From: Bryopsis sp. KO-2023
Taxonomy: Eukaryota; Chlorophyta; Ulvophyceae; Bryopsidales; Bryopsidaceae
Length of the DNA: 64,000 bases
Direction of reading: 5' to 3'
NCBI GenBank assembly: GCA_030272585.1
Contig: BSYQ01000009.1
Coordinates: 186,001-250,000 of the forward strand
Below, piece by piece: positions 39,447-64,000 of this stretch (positions are counted from its first letter, which is position 1; every line of letters starts with the position of its first letter). A program made the translations under genes and the position numbers. The notes under the pieces were generated by a model. It was not told the origin of the DNA. It saw nothing but the letters and a program-made list of their open reading frames with translations, and did not search any database.

Positions 39447-39470
39447 GTGATCATCAGACCTGGGCTGGAC

Positions 39471-39936
39471 CAGAGATAGGACTTGGGCCAAAATTCTGGT
39501 CCGGCTACGGTCCGGTCCGGTTACGGTCGAGTTACGGTTCCGTATTACGGCCGTAACTCCGTACCGTAACCGGAGTAATATGTTGTTTTTACGGTACGGA
39601 ACAGGTACGGTATAGCTACGGTAGCCCCTAAATCATCGTGAAGTAGTGTGGTTCAGTGCTAAAGCGTTAGGCTGTAGTCTGTAAGGTCGTGGGTTCGAAT
39701 CCCCCTGGGTTCCTTTGGGTTCTCGGGACCCTGCGGGGGTTACTATTTACGGTTTACGGTTGGTACGGTGGTTACGGTCGGTACGGTCCGGTACCGGAGC
39801 AGTACGGAGTGGTACGGTGGTCCGGTTCCGAGCACGAAAACCACTCCGGTCCGGACCGTAACTACCGTAACCGTAAGTGACCGGAGTGGGGTTACGGTAC
39901 GGTTTACGGTACCGTAACCGGAAAGTCCTATCTCTG
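39471..39936. mobile_element. Nested 466-bp hAT-like element with one tRNA-like module
   Basis: The terminal inverted repeat CAGAGATAGGACTT is perfect for 14 bp at both ends and is of the CAG-A/G type seen in many hAT elements. The element is flanked by the 8-bp duplication GGCTGGAC (39463-39470 and 39937-39944). It is inserted 16 bp inside the left end of the larger foldback element. Its body is made of ACGGTACGG/ACGGTCCGG repeats in both orientations around a tRNA-like core at about 39640-39712. It has no ORF of note and is non-autonomous. Confidence 0.82.
39643..39712 (+). repeat. tRNA-like module in the 466-bp element
   Basis: A perfect polymerase III B box (GGTTCGAATCC, 39692-39702) sits at the normal distance downstream of an A-box-like TGGTTCAGTGCT (39649-39660). 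The segment TAGTCTGTAAGGTC before the B box is shared with the module inside the gag insertion. A normal acceptor stem is not evident, so this is called tRNA-like, not a tRNA gene. Confidence 0.6.
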
Positions 39937-40532
39937 GGCTGGACCGGACCGGCAGCGAAAAACCGGTCCGGTCCGGTCCAACCTGTCTATGGACCGGCCG
40001 ACCTGTCCGGTCCTGTCCGGTCCAGCAAAAAAACGCCGGTCCTTTCAAAACTGGACAGGTCACGACCAGTCCTGTCCGATCCAGTCAACGTCGGAAATCT
40101 GCAGAAATCAGGATCGGTTTTCTGGCAGATTTTCCGGTTTTAGACAGGTCACACCCCACATTTCGCCTTTATTAGACAGGCGATGTGACCTGTCTAAAAC
40201 CGGAACGACCCTATCTTGACAGGGTGGTTCTCCTGTTTTAGACCGGCGCCAGGTCGGTTTGGACAGGAGTTGTGAGTATAATCTGTATGATCGGCACGAT
40301 TAGAGTCATTTCCGAAGGAAGTGGCGTTTCGTCTAACGACAGAAACTAGACCTGCGTTTTTCTGGCAAGTGGCGTTTCGCCTGAGTGGGCTGCCTGTCCA
40401 GACCAACTTGGCACCTGTCTAGAACAGGTCACACAATTAAGGACTAATTGTGTATCAATCGATCGGGAAGTGAGTTAATTAATTAAAGAATAAAGTAATA
40501 TTGTTTTTTTATATTTTTAGTGTATATTGACG

Positions 40533-44712: not shown

Positions 44713-46326
44713 ATGTCACGGGAAAGCGTAGCACAATCGCCACATCGCCATGATGATGGTGGTGATGGTGAGCCGATGGAAGCCGACGTTGTCGGACAGG
44801 TGTCCGTCAGAGGAGGAACTACACCGCGAGTTGTATCTCCGGGAACAGTTCCCGCTAGCTCTAGCGGAGTTTATGCCCGCTATGCCGACCACATGCGGTT
44901 GCATACGCGGCACCGAGAGCTACAGCGGGCTATTGATTCGCGGATAGCACATGTGGATCAACAGCTTGAAAATATCCACGGATTAATCGAGCAGACCCGC
45001 AATGACGGACAAGGCAATGTGCGACGTTTAACCGAGGCAACCCGGCGTTTGGATGGTTTGTATGCAGCACTCGACCGACAAGTTCAAGAGGTTCGTGAAA
45101 CTCTCACTCCACTTCGAGCGGAAGTGGCGACATACGCAAATGAACTGCGGACGTTACGAGAGAGCAACAATCAGGCTAACCAGCGCATTGATCAATTGAC
45201 TGCCCAAGTGGGAGAACTCCGACAAGCATTGCAGCATGCAGCGGAGAGTCGACGAAGGGATCGCACCGCAAATCAGCAATTCCGCGAGACCGCAAACGGA
45301 CAAATGCAACAGCTATTGCGCCGTTTGGCGGCGGTGGAGCAGCGGGTGGAACAAATTCCTACAGACGCACCACCAGCGGTAAACCCAGCTGAACTTGCAC
45401 GTATGGGAAATGCGGTCCGAGAAATTGGAGAACGTGTAACCCAAGTAACAAACACCTTGGCGGACACGCAACGAACGCAGAGAAATGCGTTCGACGCGCG
45501 ACTGGATGATCTGAGAAGGTCCGCGCGCGGAAGAACGGATGTAGTGGAACAGCAGTTAAATGCACGAGTGGATGAGGTGGTGGCAAAATTGGAGGAACTC
45601 GGCGGCGATGAAGTGGAAGAAGAAGTGGAAGGCAGACAAGCCATTCCGAACTTCTTTGACCCTGACCAACAAGGTCAGCCGCAAGTTGTTCCCCAACAAC
45701 CACCTCAGGTGGTGGCACCAGTGGTAGCGGCAGCGGCACGGCCGTTTGCGGTCGCCCCACTAAGGTTGCCCGCACCAGAACGGTTCTATCCAGAAAATAA
45801 GAACCGGGAGTTACCCTCGGAATGGATAGAGGGACTCACCACTCACTTTGATGCATTGAACGTCCACGATCCGGAGCGTGTCCCAATAGCATTGACCCTA
45901 CTCGGAGGCGCAGCGGCGGCTTGGGTAACTTCAACGCCCATGCAAAGAAGATATTTATCGGCGCTGTCGTGGGACGAATTTGTGGAACAATTCGTTTCGC
46001 GTTTTGAGCCTATTAACCGGGAGCGGCACAATCGGGACGAGCTCGGACGTCTAAAGCTTGCTGGCAGCATGAACATTGTGGACTACTGTCAGAAATTCCG
46101 ACTATACCGTTCGCGGTGTCGGGAGTTGAGCGACCAGGAGGCCTACAGAATATTTGAAGCCTCGTTGCCAACTCAATTGCAGTATGATCTTCGATTGCGG
46201 GCAGAGCTAGACGGAGATTACGAGGGCGCCCTCCAAATGATTCAGAACATTGGGGGAACGCTGTCCCAGATGACGGGCCGTTATAACCATACTATGGATC
46301 TGATCGATCTTCCAAAACTAAGGTAA
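44713..46326 (+). CDS. gag: Gag of Ty3/gypsy element 1, interrupted 5' part
   Basis: The frame opens at ATG 44713. Residues about 60-310 are predicted coiled coil (Arg/Gln/Leu-rich heptads). Residues about 345-525 match the retrotransposon Gag/capsid domain: an LPAPERF start, LTLLGGAAAAWV, FVEQFVSRFEP, YCQKFRLYRSRC and a final helix. True gag ends at 46287 (codon 525). The last 13 codons and stop at 46324-46326 come from the inserted foldback element. The zinc-knuckle part resumes after 47320 in the frame that results if the insertion and one duplication copy are disregarded (1033 bp, shifting the frame by one). Gag forms the particle that packages element RNA. Confidence 0.88.
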   Translation: MSRESVAQSPHRHDDGGDGEPMEADVVGQVSVRGGTTPRVVSPGTVPASSSGVYARYADHMRLHTRHRELQRAIDSRIAHVDQQLENIHGLIEQTRNDGQGNVRRLTEATRRLDGLYAALDRQVQEVRETLTPLRAEVATYANELRTLRESNNQANQRIDQLTAQVGELRQALQHAAESRRRDRTANQQFRETANGQMQQLLRRLAAVEQRVEQIPTDAPPAVNPAELARMGNAVREIGERVTQVTNTLADTQRTQRNAFDARLDDLRRSARGRTDVVEQQLNARVDEVVAKLEELGGDEVEEEVEGRQAIPNFFDPDQQGQPQVVPQQPPQVVAPVVAAAARPFAVAPLRLPAPERFYPENKNRELPSEWIEGLTTHFDALNVHDPERVPIALTLLGGAAAAWVTSTPMQRRYLSALSWDEFVEQFVSRFEPINRERHNRDELGRLKLAGSMNIVDYCQKFRLYRSRCRELSDQEAYRIFEASLPTQLQYDLRLRAELDGDYEGALQMIQNIGGTLSQMTGRYNHTMDLIDLPKLR

Positions 46327-47312
46327 TATTAGGTCACAGCAGTAATCCGACATCATAACTGCGTCCTAGAACCGATTTTAGCAATGATCGGTTTTTTTTT
46401 TTTTTTTTTTCATTTTTGGCTGATCGGTGATCGTGATCGTGATCGGCCGATCAAATGTTGATCGTGCTCTTGATCGTCCGATCACATGTTGATCGTGATC
46501 GTGATCGGTTCGCCGATCACCGATCTGATCGGTTGTTCCGATCACGATCCCGATCACGATCAAGCGCCGCGACCTGTCGGCACTTCATCGGCTGACCTTG
46601 ATCGGTGTGATCGTGATCGGCCGATCGTGATCGGACCTGCATCCGATCATGATCGGTACTGATCATTTGATCGACGAATTGATCGGTCTCGCGAAAATGC
46701 CGACAAGTCACCACCCGCAGGTGTTTCTGAGGTGGAAGGATTCGAACCGGGTACCTAACGGATTAGAAGCATACTCACTAACGCTTGGACCACTCGGAGC
46801 CACGGTTTGTAGGTCATCCGTGTCATTATATACGTGATCTGTCAGTCCGACAAACTGAGGTATATAATGACACGGATGACCTAGTGACCGTGGCTCCGAG
46901 TGGTCCAAGCGTTAATGCGTCTGTCTCTAGTCTGTTAGGTCCCAGGTTCGAATCCCTGCACCCCAGAAACACCTGCGGGTGGTGATTTCTCGGCATTTGT
47001 GATGGACCGATCAATTGACCGATCATGATCCGATCTAATCGGCATCTCCGATCACGATCACGATCACGATCAAGCGCCTCGCCCTGTCGGCGCTTGATCG
47101 GCCGATGTTGGACGGTGTGATCGTGATCGGCCGATCAAAGTTGGCCGATTAAATCGGTCAGCCGATCAGATTGGTGATCGGCCGATCTCCATCGATGATC
47201 GGCCAAACCGATTTGATCGGCGATCGATCGGATCGGAAAAACCCGATCACGATTTAATCGGTCGGACCGATCAATCCACGACCGATTAGATCGTGATCGG
47301 ATCCACAGTATG
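46288..47312. mobile_element. 1025-bp palindromic element inserted in gag, 8-bp TSD, paired tRNA-like core
   Basis: The ends are inverted: CATACTATGGATCTGATCG at the left and the near-complement of that at the right, ending CACAGTATG at 47312. An 8-bp duplication GTTATAAC flanks it (46280-46287 and 47313-47320) and fits the hAT pattern nTnnnnAn. The gag frame is continuous if the insertion is ignored, which fixes the boundaries independently. Arms at 46380-46705 and 46995-47300 are dense GATCGTGATCGG/CCGATCAC repeats. The centre (46709-46983) is a better-conserved palindrome with two tRNA-like modules. There is no transposase ORF. Confidence 0.85.
46709..46983. repeat. Inverted pair of tRNA-like modules
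   Basis: The outer stem is CCACCCGCAGGTGTTTCTG paired with its exact complement near 46963-46982. Inside, each arm has a perfect B box: GGATTCGAACC (46738-46748, minus-strand orientation) and GGTTCGAATCC (46945-46955, plus). Each also has an A-box-like TGGCTCCGAGTGG (46891-46903 and its complement at 46791-46803). The A-box variant and the following GGTCCAAGCG recall leucine/serine tRNAs. The loop end pairs GGTCATCCGTGTCATTATATA with its complement. Neither module has a convincing acceptor stem. Confidence 0.75.
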
Positions 47313-47320
47313 GTTATAAC

Positions 47321-47644
47321 CCGTTCCAGCAACAAACCCAAAGGGGCGGACGACGAGGCGGACAAAGAGGAGGTCGTTCCGGAAGAGGTGGCAGACAAAC
47401 ACAATCCGCGCCGCAAGGGTCAACAACCGGCGGCGGAAGCGGATATGGATACACCTCATTTGCTGGAGGTACTGGCGCTGGATCACAAGCAAGTGTTCAG
47501 GGCGGAAGAGGTCAGTCAAGAGGGAACCGAAGAGGAGGTGGCCGACAAAGCCAACAGGGAACACAAATGTCCCTTGGCACCTGTACCGTTTGCAATAAGA
47601 CTGGTCATACAGCGGCCAATTGCAGACAGAAACAGGGAAACTAG
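47321..47644 (+). CDS. gag: Gag of gypsy element 1, 3' part with zinc knuckle
   Basis: This segment continues gag after the insertion. It is rich in Gly, Arg and Gln (RGG-type stretches) and ends with one CCHC zinc knuckle, CTVCNKTGHTAANC, followed by a TAG at 47642-47644. The frame agrees with the upstream gag when the insertion and one duplication copy are disregarded. The knuckle binds element RNA. Confidence 0.85.
   Translation, partial: PFQQQTQRGGRRGGQRGGRSGRGGRQTQSAPQGSTTGGGSGYGYTSFAGGTGAGSQASVQGGRGQSRGNRRGGGRQSQQGTQMSLGTCTVCNKTGHTAANCRQKQGN
47635..47641 (+). promoter_or_regulatory. -1 ribosomal frameshift heptamer (gag-pol, element 1)
   Basis: GGGAAAC lies in the gag frame as G-GGA-AAC immediately before the gag stop TAG. 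It is a canonical X-XXY-YYZ slippery site. The pol frame is exactly -1 relative to gag and is open across this point. A downstream pairing structure was not evaluated. Confidence 0.7.
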
Positions 47645-58316: not shown

Positions 58317-61300
58317 CTATTCTCTTCCTTTCTGCAACTCTTTTCTTTCTTTCTCTTTAAATGCGCGAAGTATATCTGGTGCGTTAACCAGATTAGCTTC
58401 AGGTTCCCAAGTAGCGTCAAGTAGATCGTATCCTTTCCACAGCACTAGGTATTCACGATTGCGTTTACCTCTAGCCCTTAGGATATTTTCGACCTCATAC
58501 TCTACTTCGCTACCAATCAACTCTCCTTCTGGAGGTTGTATCTGCCTGCTGTTATCACTCGAGGCGTGATAACGCTTGAACTTAGAAACATGAAACACTG
58601 GGTGAATGAGCCATGTTTCCGGAAGTTGAACTCTGTAAGCCACCTTTGATATTTTCTCCACAATTTCAAAGGGACCCACAAATCGACGGCGCAGTTTTGG
58701 ACTCACTTTGTTCAAAGCAGCCAACGGAATAAAACGGCTTTTTATCAGGACTTTATCCCCTTTCTCAAAAGCAATATCTTTCCTCTTCTTGTTTGCACTC
58801 ACACACATTCTGTGTTGCGCTCTAGAGTAATATGCTTTTGCGGTATCTAAGTCCTGTGCCATCCGTGCTACCATTGTCTTAACTGCTTCCACTTGAAATT
58901 GCGTTGCCGTCCCACCAATGTTTGGTGTTTCTGGATGGTATCCATACATCAAGTATGCAGGTGCGAACCCTGTACTCGCATTCACTGCATTGTTTGCTGC
59001 AAACTCTGCTGTAGGTAAATACTCAACCCACTTATGGGGATACCTCTCAGCATATGGCCTTAGAAAATTTTCCAGAGTACGTATGGTAACCTCACTCTGC
59101 CCATCCGTCTGAGGGTGGTAAGCTGTACTCATACGAATCTCTGTACCCAGAGCTTTAAAAAGCGTCTGCCAGAACTTGCTGGTAAAGCGAGGGTCTCTAT
59201 CAGACACAATCACTTTAGGTAGGCCATGGTTGCGGTAAACATGTTCGATAAAAAGTTGGGCGTATCCTGCAGCGGTAATCTCTTTAGTACATGGGGCGAA
59301 ATGCACAAACTTGGTAAGTCTATCGACAAAGACAGCTACAGCACTAAACCCATTGGATGCTGGTAGATCTGTCACCAAGTCAGTGGTAATCTGCTCCCAC
59401 TTCCGCTCAGGTATTGGCAGGGGTTGAAGTAAGCCCATAGGCTTCTGTGTGTCAGCCTTTATTTGTTGGCACACAGGGCATTCGCGCACAAATGCCTTCA
59501 ACTCATTCATCCACCCCTTCCACCAATATCGCCGCGCTAGGATTTCTCCTGTTCGCGCTGGTCCTGTATGGCCTGCTGAAGGTGCCTCATGGCACTCCTT
59601 CATAATCTTATTGCGCTGGCCTTTAGGAACCACCACTTTCTCGACTAATCCTCTCTTTGGGACCGTCCAGAGTATTCCCTCTCTGAGGAAATATCCCTCA
59701 ACTTCCTCGCCACTCTCAAGCTTCCGCAATATCTTCACCAAGGAGTTATCAGCTTGGAGGGCTTGTTTCCACTCGTCTTGGCTTGCTTGATGCACTTGCC
59801 AAGTGGAAATGTTCATCGCAGTTTCCACGGGCTTAGGAACACTGCGGGAGAGAGCATCTGCTAACACATTAGCCTTGCCTTTGATATAGGAGATCTTGGG
59901 GTTGATCGAAGTCAGGTACCCCGCCTCAAGCCATCTTGCTTGGGTTCTAGAAAGGTTCCTCTGCGACAGAATATGCGTCAGAGGTTGGTGGTCAGTGAAC
60001 ACTGTTACTCCACCCGCACAACCTTCTAGATAATGTCTCCACTGCACCATCGCATAACATATTGCACACAACTCTTTGTCGTATGGTGCATAGTTAAGCT
60101 CGGCAGGCTTGAAACTACGTGAGAGGTAAGCTATTGGCTGTAGTCCCTCTCCGTGATCCTGTGTTAACACGGCACCGATGGCCTCATTCGACGCATCAGT
60201 GATCACAGTGTAAGGCAGTGACGCATCTGGAAAAATAAGGACGGGAGCTTGACTTAAACGCTTTTTCAGTTCATTGAATGCGCCACGCTCAACCTGTCCC
60301 CATCTCCAGGGATGGTCTTTTTTCACTAAGTCATGGAGTGGTCCAGCAACATGTGCAAACTGGGGAATGAATTTCCTGTAGTATGAAACCATTCCAAGGA
60401 AGCTACGTACATCACTAACACTCTGTAGTTCCTTCCACTCCTTCACTGCCTTCACTTTTTGTTCCTGTGGTTTTAACCCACTTCCGCTAATGCGGTAGCC
60501 AAGATAGTCTACTGTTGCGACAGCCAGCTCACTTTTACTTGCCTTAGCAAAAAGCTGATATTCTGCTAGTCGCGACAGGACTTTCTCTAAGTGTTCGGCA
60601 TGCTGTTCCATGTTTTCAGAGAAGATGAGTATGTCATCGATAAAGACAACAACAAAATCATCTAAAAACTCTGCGAGTAGGTCTTGCACTAGAGTTTGGA
60701 ATTGCGCTGGGCAATTGGTTAGCCCAAAAGGCGCTACCAAAAACTCAAAGTGACCGTATCTCGTGCGGAACGCTGTTTTATCTGTATCAGATGGCCTTAC
60801 TGGAAATTGCCAATAGCCTGATCGCAGATCTAACTTTGAGAACACTTTGGCTTTGAACACTCTATCCATCAATTCTTCTGGCAGGGGTAAAGGATATCGG
60901 TTTTTCACCGTCACCTTATTGATCCACCTGTAATCCACACACATCCTTAAGCCTCCATCCTTTTTCGGTACAAACAGGATTGGCGCGCCCCAAGGGGACT
61001 CGGATGGTTTGATTTTCTTCTGTTCCAGAAGGTAGTCCACTTGTGCTTTCACTTCATCCAGCTCTGCTGGTGAAAGCTTGTATATTGGACGATGGATAGG
61101 TGTTGGATCCTCCAGGTCTATCTTAAACTCATGACCTTTTCTCTTCGGAGGGATCCCTGGGGGTAAATCCCGAGGGAACACACCACGGTGTGTTTCTACC
61201 ACCTTTTTAATTTCGGCAGGGGTGTCTGAACGAATAAGTTTGCCAATCTCATCCTCAGTGTTGAATGGCTGTGTTCGCTCTATTGCGTCAGGCAATTCAT

Positions 61301-62327
61301 GTTGGCCTAAAGCTTTCTCTTCAGATTCTTGCACTACAACCATGAATGCTGTCTCTGTTTTGAGATGACGCATCATTCGTTTAGCTGAACACTCAGTCAC
61401 TGGCACTTCTTGCAGTATCGATTGTACTTTTCGTTCAGGTTCAATACTCTCTTGGGTTGGATGACGCAACGGGAGATGAAACACTTGGCTGTTTTTGCAA
61501 ACTGAAATCTCATTTTGCTGAAAGTCTATGCGGGGGTTTTCTTTCTGCAACCAAGGCATGCCCAATATTAGGTCATAACCAAGGTCTGGGAACAAATCCG
61601 CTTTCATTTTGCACTTTAGCCCTCCTATCTTTACTCGGAGGTTGTTACAGCTGCCAGCCAGTTCTTTAATATCTCCGTTTGCCAACATTGCTCTCTTTGA
61701 GCTTGGTGTAATCGACAACCCGAGATCACGCGCTACCTTATCATTGATATAGTTTGCGGTACTTCCACAATCAATGAATGCATAAAGGTCCGTGGTCTTG
61801 ATCCGTGCTTTTACTTCGTACCCTCTCACAGGCACTTCTTGAATTTTTAACAGAGGGCATGTGTCACCCTTGGTTGACGAAGTTGATCGAACTTCTGACA
61901 CATTAACTCGCTCTGTGGTAGACCGCTGGGTTGTTTCTGACCCACTATCGTCTACGTCTGCAGGCAGGGACTCCTGTAGACTACTCTGCGACTCCAATGA
62001 GCCCACAGATTCACTAACAGAGGGAAGAGATGCAGATGACGCATGAGGCGCGTCCATCTCATCCGGTGTGCTTTCCTTCTGTTCATTTTTCCAATCGCAG
62101 TTGTCATGTGCCGATTGGGTAGATGTGGAGAGTGTCTCTGTTCTCTCTTCACGCGGTGTACTAGTCCGCTCCTCAGGTTTTCCGCTGTGAGTACTTTTAA
62201 CCTTTTTCGAGGCACCTACTTTTGATCTATGCTTCCTACGCCGCCTACGAACTCTGTTTCGCTTACGACGTTTGCGTCGGCCAGGCTCAGACGAAGCAGT
62301 TTCCTGCCTGGCGGTCAGTTTAACATT
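58317..62327 (-). CDS. pol: Pol of chromovirus element 2: protease, RT, RNase H, integrase, chromodomain
   Basis: The frame is open from the -1 frameshift site to the stop at 58317 (1336 codons); residue numbers below count from the internal ATG at 62057. The protease has FIDCGSTANYI (D96-C-G, where D-S/T-G is usual). The reverse transcriptase has VFIDDILIF (D474, D475). RNase H includes VITDASNEAIGAV (D621) and FTDHQPL (D689). Integrase has an HHCC zinc site (H823, H830, C860, C863) and the DDE triad D893, D953, E989 with the D-35-E spacing. The C-terminus (about 1185-1225) is a chromodomain with EYEVENILRARGKRNREYLV and LWKGYDLLDATWEPE, which targets integration to heterochromatin marks in chromoviruses. 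A very basic linker precedes the protease. All domains are intact, so the copy could be recent. Confidence 0.95.
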   Translation of the reverse strand, partial: NVKLTARQETASSEPGRRKRRKRNRVRRRRRKHRSKVGASKKVKSTHSGKPEERTSTPREERTETLSTSTQSAHDNCDWKNEQKESTPDEMDAPHASSASLPSVSESVGSLESQSSLQESLPADVDDSGSETTQRSTTERVNVSEVRSTSSTKGDTCPLLKIQEVPVRGYEVKARIKTTDLYAFIDCGSTANYINDKVARDLGLSITPSSKRAMLANGDIKELAGSCNNLRVKIGGLKCKMKADLFPDLGYDLILGMPWLQKENPRIDFQQNEISVCKNSQVFHLPLRHPTQESIEPERKVQSILQEVPVTECSAKRMMRHLKTETAFMVVVQESEEKALGQHELPDAIERTQPFNTEDEIGKLIRSDTPAEIKKVVETHRGVFPRDLPPGIPPKRKGHEFKIDLEDPTPIHRPIYKLSPAELDEVKAQVDYLLEQKKIKPSESPWGAPILFVPKKDGGLRMCVDYRWINKVTVKNRYPLPLPEELMDRVFKAKVFSKLDLRSGYWQFPVRPSDTDKTAFRTRYGHFEFLVAPFGLTNCPAQFQTLVQDLLAEFLDDFVVVFIDDILIFSENMEQHAEHLEKVLSRLAEYQLFAKASKSELAVATVDYLGYRISGSGLKPQEQKVKAVKEWKELQSVSDVRSFLGMVSYYRKFIPQFAHVAGPLHDLVKKDHPWRWGQVERGAFNELKKRLSQAPVLIFPDASLPYTVITDASNEAIGAVLTQDHGEGLQPIAYLSRSFKPAELNYAPYDKELCAICYAMVQWRHYLEGCAGGVTVFTDHQPLTHILSQRNLSRTQARWLEAGYLTSINPKISYIKGKANVLADALSRSVPKPVETAMNISTWQVHQASQDEWKQALQADNSLVKILRKLESGEEVEGYFLREGILWTVPKRGLVEKVVVPKGQRNKIMKECHEAPSAGHTGPARTGEILARRYWWKGWMNELKAFVRECPVCQQIKADTQKPMGLLQPLPIPERKWEQITTDLVTDLPASNGFSAVAVFVDRLTKFVHFAPCTKEITAAGYAQLFIEHVYRNHGLPKVIVSDRDPRFTSKFWQTLFKALGTEIRMSTAYHPQTDGQSEVTIRTLENFLRPYAERYPHKWVEYLPTAEFAANNAVNASTGFAPAYLMYGYHPETPNIGGTATQFQVEAVKTMVARMAQDLDTAKAYYSRAQHRMCVSANKKRKDIAFEKGDKVLIKSRFIPLAALNKVSPKLRRRFVGPFEIVEKISKVAYRVQLPETWLIHPVFHVSKFKRYHASSDNSRQIQPPEGELIGSEVEYEVENILRARGKRNREYLVLWKGYDLLDATWEPEANLVNAPDILRAFKEKERKELQKGRE

Positions 62328-64000
62328 TTTTTTACATCGGGGAGGTTTTTCACCTCCTCCAATCTAGGACATTGCCTCACAGGGTGACCCTTCTTTCCAC
62401 AAAGATAACAATTATATCCCCCTCCCCCCTGGGGGTTCTGTCTTCCCTGATTGGCTTGTCCTCTTCCACGGTTACCACCACCGCGTCCACGTCCACCACC
62501 ACCACCACGTCCTCCTCCTCGTCCTTGTTGCTGTTGCTGCTGCTGTTGCACTCCTGCGGCAGCTTGTGGTGGTGCTTGGGCTGGTGGTGTAGGGTTCTGC
62601 TGCTGCTGACCCTGATTCTGGCCTTTCTTCTTTCTTCCACCACGCCAGACTCCTTTCTTTTTCTGATTGGTTTGCCCTCCTTGGCCTTGTGTTCCAACTC
62701 CAAGGGCTTCCAATCGTTCGGCGGATATGATGGCGGCCTCGACATCGCGAGGTACCGTTGCTGCGACTAACTTCTGAACTTCACTTTTAAGTCCATCCAC
62801 GAAGAGCAAATACTGGTGATCCTCTTCGAGGTCTGGAATCCTCAAGACTAACCGCTGAAACTCTTTAACGAACTGTTTCACGGTTCCAGTCTGCTTGAGT
62901 TTGTGGAGGTCACGCCACGCTTCATCTCGATCACTAGAGAATTCGAAAGCTGTAGCTAAGCCATCCATGAAGTCCATCCAGTCACGGAAGGGTGGTCTTT
63001 CACCTCGGTGAATTTTCAACTCTTGCATCGTTAACCAATCCGAGGCAGCCCCATAAAGGTTAGTGGCCATAATCGATTGCCACTGTGCTTCATGCACTCC
63101 GCAGGTTCTCAAGTACCGCGTCATGAGCACTTGCCATTTACGGGCTTTTGGTTCTCCACTTCCGTTAAATGCGCGAGGCATTTGCAACTTGACGGTGCTA
63201 GGCAACCACTGTCCTTGCCTAGGAGGTCCTGGCCCTGCTGGTCCAGCGCCACCTCCACCTCCACCTCCACCAGGAGGTCCACCGGGAGGTCCACCGCCTC
63301 CACCATCTCCACCGCCGCCACCACCTCCGCCATCAGGCGCACCTGGAATGCGGGAAGGTGGGCGGTTTCGTCTGTCGCGGTAATCATCACCGCCATCATC
63401 ATCTGGGTCGTCATCACCAGGGTCTCCAAAGTTATCTCGCATGCGAGGAACTCGACTGGGTCCACCAGTAGACTCATATGAACCAAGTGCAGCAAAGGGA
63501 TTATTTTCTACCCTTGCTCCCAAAGCACTTAACCCAAGTCCCAATCTTCCAGTACGTGTGGGGATCTGCATGGGTTCTTTTCCTTTCTCTTCTCTGACCT
63601 GTGCCTTAGCACGCTCAAGGTCAATTTGATATAACACTTCTGCTGAGGAGAGAACTCTTGGGTTAGTTCGTGTGGGTCTACGTGATCCATCGGCAGAGTC
63701 GGGTTCTGAGATGCGTACTCCAGGCTGAGCTCTTGTACTTGGAGGTATCAATTGAGGGAATGTGAAATCAGCGTCTGGTGCGCTGTCCACTGCAGTGCAT
63801 GGTGGTGCTTCTGCAGCAACAATTTCACCCTCCTCGACCTGTACTGCTGGAGGAGCCGGTATTGTTGAGGTTCCTGCCCCAACCATTCCTACCGCGAAGC
63901 TCTGGTCCAGTGGCGGCCATGATGCAGCCAACTGCTTTACTGATTTCTTCGGCAGCGGCATCCCAAAGGCTGAGTCCTCAGGCTCAGGAGAAGTTGATTC
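62315..64000 (-). CDS. gag: Gag of chromovirus element 2 (5' end outside window)
   Basis: The frame ends at TGA 62317-62315. An ATG lies at 63961, but the frame stays open to the window edge, so the true start may be further upstream. Numbering from 63961, residues 1-260 are Pro/Gly-rich and acidic with a long poly-Gly/Pro stretch near 215-250. Residues about 255-440 are the Gag/capsid domain (LQMPRAFNGSGEPKARKW, then ATNLYGAASDWL, then LHKLKQTGTVKQFVKEFQRL). A Gln/Gly/Arg-rich linker follows. A CCHC zinc knuckle CYLCGKKGHPVRQC is near the C-terminus. The order capsid then knuckle is normal for Ty3/gypsy Gag. Confidence 0.9.
   Translation of the reverse strand, partial: ESTSPEPEDSAFGMPLPKKSVKQLAASWPPLDQSFAVGMVGAGTSTIPAPPAVQVEEGEIVAAEAPPCTAVDSAPDADFTFPQLIPPSTRAQPGVRISEPDSADGSRRPTRTNPRVLSSAEVLYQIDLERAKAQVREEKGKEPMQIPTRTGRLGLGLSALGARVENNPFAALGSYESTGGPSRVPRMRDNFGDPGDDDPDDDGGDDYRDRRNRPPSRIPGAPDGGGGGGGGDGGGGGPPGGPPGGGGGGGGAGPAGPGPPRQGQWLPSTVKLQMPRAFNGSGEPKARKWQVLMTRYLRTCGVHEAQWQSIMATNLYGAASDWLTMQELKIHRGERPPFRDWMDFMDGLATAFEFSSDRDEAWRDLHKLKQTGTVKQFVKEFQRLVLRIPDLEEDHQYLLFVDGLKSEVQKLVAATVPRDVEAAIISAERLEALGVGTQGQGGQTNQKKKGVWRGGRKKKGQNQGQQQQNPTPPAQAPPQAAAGVQQQQQQQQGRGGGRGGGGGRGRGGGNRGRGQANQGRQNPQGGGGYNCYLCGKKGHPVRQCPRLEEVKNLPDVKKMLN
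62326..62333 (-). promoter_or_regulatory. -1 frameshift site, A8 run (gag-pol, element 2)
   Basis: On the minus strand eight consecutive A residues read A-AAA-AAA in the gag frame, nine bases before the gag stop TGA (62317-62315). Pol is in the -1 frame and open from this point. This is the expected place for programmed -1 frameshifting, though a run of A can also be a sequencing slip. Confidence 0.65.

Follow-up and report, generated by a model that had tools for sequence, protein, structure and literature searches.

The interrupted gag and the element within it

The stretch of DNA analysed here (the window, 64,000 nucleotides) comes from Bryopsis sp. KO-2023, a siphonous, giant-celled green alga, whose genome was searched over 91.09 Mb in 28 contigs. 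A protein encoded in the window matches BSKO_09856 of this alga at 100% identity over 85% of the query. The window holds a Ty3/gypsy gag gene split by a 1025-bp non-autonomous hAT element, a member of what is called family 1 below, with short inverted ends, an 8-bp target-site duplication and a central palindrome carrying two modules of tRNA-derived sequence. The gag and the outer parts of the element comprise the following features.

44713-46287 (+): Ty3/gypsy gag, segment 5′ of the insertion (PF03732 Retrotrans_gag, 1.9e-12, on the frame 44713-46326)
46280-46287 (unstranded): left target-site duplication, 8 bp, GTTATAAC (window sequence, copy comparison, empty site)
46288-47312 (+): family-1 non-autonomous hAT element, 1025 bp (repeat finder, copy comparison, genome copies)
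46288-46300 (+): left terminal inverted repeat, 13 bp, CATACTATGGATC (window sequence, copies)
46288-46664 (+): left subterminal region, GATCGTGATCGG-rich, 87% identical to a 7286-bp hAT relative
47048-47312 (+): right subterminal region, 96% identical to the same relative
47300-47312 (-): right terminal inverted repeat, 13 bp, GATCCACAGTATG, which is GATCCATAGTATG in most copies compared
47313-47320 (unstranded): right target-site duplication, 8 bp, GTTATAAC (window sequence, copy comparison)
47321-47644 (+): gag continuation 3′ of the insertion, with a zinc knuckle, frame shifted by 1033

A repeat finder pairs the inverted ends 46280-46305 and 47295-47320 over 26 nt at 92% complementarity, a figure in which the palindromic duplication is counted. 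Since the sequence GTTATAAC reads as a palindrome, duplication and terminal repeat are indistinguishable within the window; copies elsewhere separate them, and their comparison fixes the ends, read along one strand, as CATACTATGGATC...GATCCAYAGTATG. The extent given in the original prediction, 46288-47312 with inverted ends and an 8-bp duplication, proves exact to the base. The prediction had also held that the two gag parts share one frame only when the element and one duplication copy are disregarded, and indeed 46105-46287 and 47321-47641 are both open in matching frames once these 1033 bases are discounted; a zinc knuckle, CTVCNKTGHTAANC, was recognised by eye in the downstream part.

The related gypsy copies provide the empty site that the prediction proposed to look for. 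A 137-base query, in which both flanks were joined with a single duplication, returned 19 genome matches, and 15 of these span all 137 bases uninterrupted (13 at 100%, two at 98-99%). The remaining four are the two halves of the window copy and the two halves of a gypsy copy on C3. It is thus not the case that all gypsy copies carry the segment, and its being a native component of the retrotransposon, which its place within gag might suggest, has a practically negligible probability in view of the 15 continuous copies and of further copies of the segment at unrelated sites, each with its own duplication; this candidate was rejected. The C3 gypsy copy (L082, G000:C3:2202684-2203853) carries an independent insertion of the same element, 26 bases upstream of the insertion point in the window.

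Genome copies and the hAT relative

The family-1 element has the features of a miniature inverted-repeat transposable element (MITE): no reading frame of 150 amino acids or longer lies inside its 1025 bp, and its copies, with terminal inverted repeats (TIRs), are many and homogeneous. At least 40 full-length genome matches, the window's own included, show 97-100% identity (40 of 316 candidates scored), and the first 22 bases, with up to three mismatches, occur at 134 places, compared with none for a reversed-pattern control. The first 100 of these 134 places were listed, and the copy survey covered 89 loci (L009-L098 minus L078), a copy being recorded when each 13-base end had at most two mismatches, the length was 400-2500 bp and the duplication had at most one mismatch. 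Seventy loci yielded 72 such records, in all of which the 8-bp duplication is free of mismatches, with 71 different duplications among them; the other 19 loci, some of them of a long type or truncated, gave no record. Identity to the window copy is 96% or higher in 67 of 69 aligned copies (the window's own counted) and 87% in two. The search with the element's ends suggested by the original prediction recovers copies with the same ends and core at different 8-bp duplications, and the prediction withstood the refuting test set for it.

Some copies lie in unusual surroundings. L013 (G000:C7:8241-10265) is a family-1 copy within CCCTAAA telomere-type repeats, with the duplication CCCTAAAC. L015 and L031, on different contigs, share an identical left flank and the duplication GTCTCAGC in what appear, by eye, to be GTCCTGTCC-rich repeat surroundings; L031 also contains a family-1 element nested within itself.

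Several left ends belong to far longer elements that have approximately the first 377 bp in common with the MITE. One of them was traced to both ends (C1:10996-18281, 7286 bp, with CTCGCAGC on each side) and aligns to MITE positions 1-377 at 87% and 761-1025 at 96%. It codes, on the other strand relative to the MITE's orientation, for part of a protein containing the domain PF05699 Dimer_Tnp_hAT (5.2e-16). A same-ended relative with a hAT domain backs the hAT assignment independently of duplication length, which is itself the 8 bp of hAT elements in 72 of 72 records; the hAT type claimed at the outset thus finds support in the copies across the genome, in the empty sites and in the relative. 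As to the DDE/RNase H core and BED finger of a hAT transposase, a CxxC...H...H pattern is visible by eye in the protein of the relative. A homology search with the transposase returned three proteins, of which the only clearly named one is partial and labelled Devosia indica, a match taken for contamination or mislabelling. MITE positions 378-760, which hold the palindrome, find in the relative only arm-type repeats and one 44-base match (77%, E 1.9e-4); the core palindrome is absent from the one long relative traced.

hAT elements prefer targets of the form nTnnnnAn, and the 72 duplications follow this preference in a softened form, with T (37) or C (27) at position 2 in 64 and A (33) or G (32) at position 7 in 65. 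hAT elements also usually begin with CAGNG, whereas family 1 begins with CATAC, its terminal CATACTATGG standing in place of that motif; a second family described below begins with CAGAG. We take the terminal CAGNG as a frequent trait of hAT elements and not a defining one.

The palindromic core and its modules

The core consists of two arms of 166 nt, 85% complementary according to the repeat finder and separated by a 26-nt loop, each arm carrying one module.

46668-46833 (-): left arm of the core palindrome, leftward tRNA-derived module (repeat finder, arm alignment)
46694-46697 (-): TTTT, a possible RNA polymerase III (Pol III) terminator, about 40 nt past the left B box
46706-46728 (-): 3′ block of the left module, around CACCTGCGGGTGGTG
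46738-46748 (-): B box of the left module, GGTTCGAATCC, perfect
46783-46803 (-): A-box-like block of the left module, GTGGCTCCGAGTGGTCCAAGC
46811-46833 (-): TATA-containing upstream block, left module, GTATATAATGACACGGATGACCT
46860-47025 (+): right arm of the core palindrome, rightward tRNA-derived module (repeat finder, arm alignment)
46860-46882 (+): TATA-containing upstream block, right module; all 23 columns invariant across six arms
46890-46910 (+): A-box-like block of the right module, GTGGCTCCGAGTGGTCCAAGC
46945-46955 (+): B box of the right module, GGTTCGAATCC, perfect
46965-46987 (+): 3′ block of the right module, AGAAACACCTGCGGGTGGTGATT

The modules diverge, pointing away from each other. 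Outward along each run the TATA block GTATATAATGACACGGATGACCT and GTGGCTCCGAGTGGTCCAAGC, a stretch that varies, then the B box GGTTCGAATCC followed by AGAAACACCTGCGGGTGGTGA. Sites matching GGTTCGANNCC number three in the 64-kb window against 0.42 expected, a count reached by one of 100 shuffles. The block GTGGCTCCGAGTGGTCCAAGC has the look of a class-II tRNA A box and corresponds to the beginning of the only host tRNA-type gene fetched, the single gene found by a host-tRNA pattern search and named tRNA-SeC by ARAGORN. The A block of the modules departs from the A-box consensus. In both modules it starts 55 nt before the perfect B box, so that A-like block and B box stand in the order and at the spacing usual for a type 2 Pol III promoter. 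All 69 left modules tested have a TTTT no more than 60 nt past their B box.

The predicted central palindrome with two opposed B boxes is accordingly present, on the minus and plus strands, and the paired tRNA-like modules foreseen with it are there as a divergent, tRNA-derived pair. Their likeness to tRNA genes does not hold at standard settings: the tRNA search proposed for the core gave no gene in the element with ARAGORN defaults and no RF00005 match even at E≤10. With lowered ARAGORN thresholds a poor cloverleaf appears for the family-1 right module (70%) and for the module of the second family (80%), and none for the family-1 left module. tRNA genes were on these grounds rejected as an identity for the modules, which by their sequence are tRNA-derived without being tRNA genes.

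The palindrome might instead serve as a source of hairpin RNA of miRNA or siRNA type and not be a tRNA-like unit at all. The predicted RNA fold of 46660-47035 is indeed very stable (-271 kcal/mol, where shuffled sequences average -115 and none of 100 does as well; z -25.6), and the core gives sub-threshold matches to miRNA families, among them mir-489 (E 0.00099, 29.5 bits against a gathering score of 61). Such matches lie under the curated cut-offs and are expected of any long hairpin, however, and the window's second element, described next, has a single module and no pair; a hairpin source appears improbable.

Genome-wide, exact matches to a single module number 197, which at two per element suggests a total of about 100 family-1 copies. 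Among the first 100 of these matches listed, 98 have a listed left end no more than 2 kb away, the exceptions being C2:4802699 and C5:2305727. The full-length core matches scored (40 of 160 candidates) fall, by eye, at known elements or their remnants, L077 being without a left end. A stand-alone module family was rejected as far as these scored matches go.

A homologous module occurs in a second hAT-type family, represented in the window by one element.

39471-39936 (+): family-2 hAT-type MITE, 466 bp, ends CAGAGATAGGACTT/AAGTCCTATCTCTG, duplication GGCTGGAC, one module

With its duplications this element spans 39463-39944; its B box lies at 39692-39702 and its arms are TACGGT-rich, and its terminal ends differ from those of family 1. 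The family-2 left end has 429 genome matches with at most one mismatch, and its control none. In the fetched DNA, 11 of 12 family-2 end pairings have 8-bp duplications without mismatch, and the twelfth, with six mismatches, joins unrelated ends. Eight of the 11 elements contain one B box and a 330-bp element contains none; the remaining two (L011, L042) contain three, because a family-1 element sits within. At L022:19-1533 a family-2 and a family-1 element adjoin, with the same 8-bp GCTGGTAT before, between and after both, an arrangement that would result if the later element had entered precisely at the earlier one's duplication.

In local alignment the family-1 right module scores 59 against the family-2 module (mean 19.3 and maximum 34 in 1000 shuffles) over 57 bases, well beyond the B box, and the left module scores 41 (maximum 35; 0 of 1000). 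Against the host tRNA-type gene the family-1 right module scores 40 (maximum 38) and the left 38 (maximum 32), and the modules of both families fall at 38-40, each with 0 of 1000 shuffles as high; it should be noted that the family-2 module and the host tRNA were picked through the B box, and the tRNA also through the A box, a selection that the shuffles ignore. The homology may reflect shared descent from one hAT ancestor or separate capture. Its presence in a second family makes the module a recurring feature of the alga's mobile DNA and not a one-off.

Probable origin and possible role of the modules

In addition to the observed ends, duplications and empty sites, the numerous copies, the relative with a hAT domain and without the core, and the module homology across families, the favoured interpretation takes in the origin of the core. 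The element is very probably a hAT MITE in which a tRNA-derived module resembling a Pol III promoter was captured, today as an inverted pair; its mobility would come from the long relative. The shared ends suggest mobilisation in trans by the hAT transposase of this relative of about 7.3 kb, which would recognise those ends together with the subterminal GATC-rich repeats, and cut-and-paste transposition would leave the 8-bp duplications. The inside of a long element would have been replaced by the captured module (TATA block, A-box-like block, B box and 3′ block), presumably in aborted gap repair, and the module would have become an inverted pair, the probable mechanism being fold-back copying or template switching while the gap of an excised parent was repaired. 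The whole element would then have been amplified to roughly 100 copies, one of which landed in the gypsy gag. The modules themselves are plausible Pol III promoters.

The case for retained promoter blocks comes from an alignment of six arms, two each from the window copy and from L056 and L062, which are older. In it 117 of 166 columns are invariant, and they cluster (P 0.0001; longest run P 0.0054; 10,000 column shuffles): the upstream block has 23 of 23, the A block 19 of 20, the B block 18 of 21 and the 3′ block 20 of 23, compared with 12 of 26 in the anticodon region and 18 of 38 in the distal part.

Several observations, the selection through B boxes noted above among them, weigh against this interpretation. 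The blocks were drawn after the alignment had been seen, and from three copies; by the count of differences, conversion between arms could also produce clustered identity. Among 67 young copies, nucleotide diversity (pi) is 0.020 and 0.019 in the core arms against 0.0055 in the left and 0.033 in the right arm of the element, and with the core exceeding the left arm in diversity, though not the right, these values fail to show recent selection on it; identity to L056 and L062 is likewise 0.85-0.89 in the core, about that of the arms (0.84-0.87). The 515-bp copy L064 is without core and exact B boxes and has a perfect duplication; its transposition implies that the modules are non-essential. No exact module lies within 2 kb of 17 of the 69 left ends listed on C1-C6, long relatives included, and a TTTT precedes the element end in only two of 68 records of the right module. 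On the side of the transposase, the 402-amino-acid N-terminal piece from the relative has no significant Pfam domain. In L068 (1468 bp) both B boxes are altered at CpG (GGTTTGAATCC), the change expected when methylated CpG decays. Four long hAT relatives (L048, L050, L054 and L066) have an isolated B-box-like GGTTCGATCCC of their own, in the same surroundings in all four.

In a narrower version of the favoured interpretation the modules are a neutral passenger, a tRNA pseudogene or SINE (short interspersed nuclear element) fragment amplified only through good ends. The transposed core-less copy, the core diversity above that of the left arm, the scarcity of TTTT past the right module and the lack of tRNA calls at standard settings all agree with this version; the clustering of invariant columns on promoter-like blocks, post hoc as these are, the homologous module in a family with different ends and the constant TTTT after the left B box speak against it. 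We regard the question as evenly poised.

The modules may alternatively be Pol III promoters kept by selection, the benefit being that transcription or the binding of TFIIIC would open up or position the element in favour of transposition. The occurrence of modules in two families, their clustered conservation, the upstream TATA block and the left-module TTTT speak for this version, and PMC10886601 offers a precedent in terminal-repeat retrotransposons in miniature (TRIMs) with promoters derived from small-RNA genes. A DNA transposon, however, requires no RNA intermediate, and the core of young copies is no less variable than the left arm, which leaves selection a tentative and rather unlikely proposal. 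The wider idea that hAT MITEs of Bryopsis acquire a tRNA-derived Pol III module and retain it under selection, transcription or TFIIIC binding, in family 1 directed outward from the palindrome, aiding mobilisation or escape from silencing, is doubtful and put forward as speculation.

Compared with known systems, the element resembles hAT MITEs and other non-autonomous hAT elements in its 8-bp duplications, short TIRs, many near-identical copies and longer relative with a hAT dimerisation domain, and departs from usual hAT MITEs in its large palindromic core with two tRNA-derived modules. Foldback elements of the FB/Galileo type have repeat-rich arms and a large inverted repeat; our element shares both, but its TIR is only 13 bp, and its palindrome lies inside the element and is absent from the long relative. 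tRNA-derived SINEs contain an A/B-box module with a degenerate anticodon region, as does the element, but they have no TIR and their duplications vary in length, whereas here TIRs, fixed 8-bp duplications and paired divergent modules place it outside the SINEs. According to PMC10886601, the TRIMs Helenus (TRIMp3) and Cassandra are likewise non-autonomous, with a promoter-like module derived from small-RNA genes whose motifs are conserved without a functional tRNA fold, but they are long terminal repeat retrotransposons, make 4-5-bp duplications and depend on an RNA template; as a DNA transposon with TIRs and 8-bp duplications, the element is on that description no TRIMp3. An open-access literature search found no described DNA transposon with tRNA-like modules, which does not imply absence in print.

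Two further observations concern the surroundings. On the minus strand of the window, at 58317-63961, a second retrotransposon was recognised by eye in translation from long frames resembling pol and gag. Elsewhere, G000:C5:2779182-3768604 holds dozens of tRNA matches with equal scores, many of them at intervals of about 3 kb, a spacing like that of tandem arrays.

tRNA-derived promoters are thought useful to mobile elements that move through RNA. In two hAT-type families of this alga the tRNA fold is lost and the promoter blocks are apparently kept, which raises the question of what a cut-and-paste element gains from them. In such a genome, MITEs also contribute to counts of tRNA-like sequences. 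If selection on the modules were real, these elements would be the counterpart, among DNA transposons that need no RNA copy, of SINEs and Pol III-type TRIMs.

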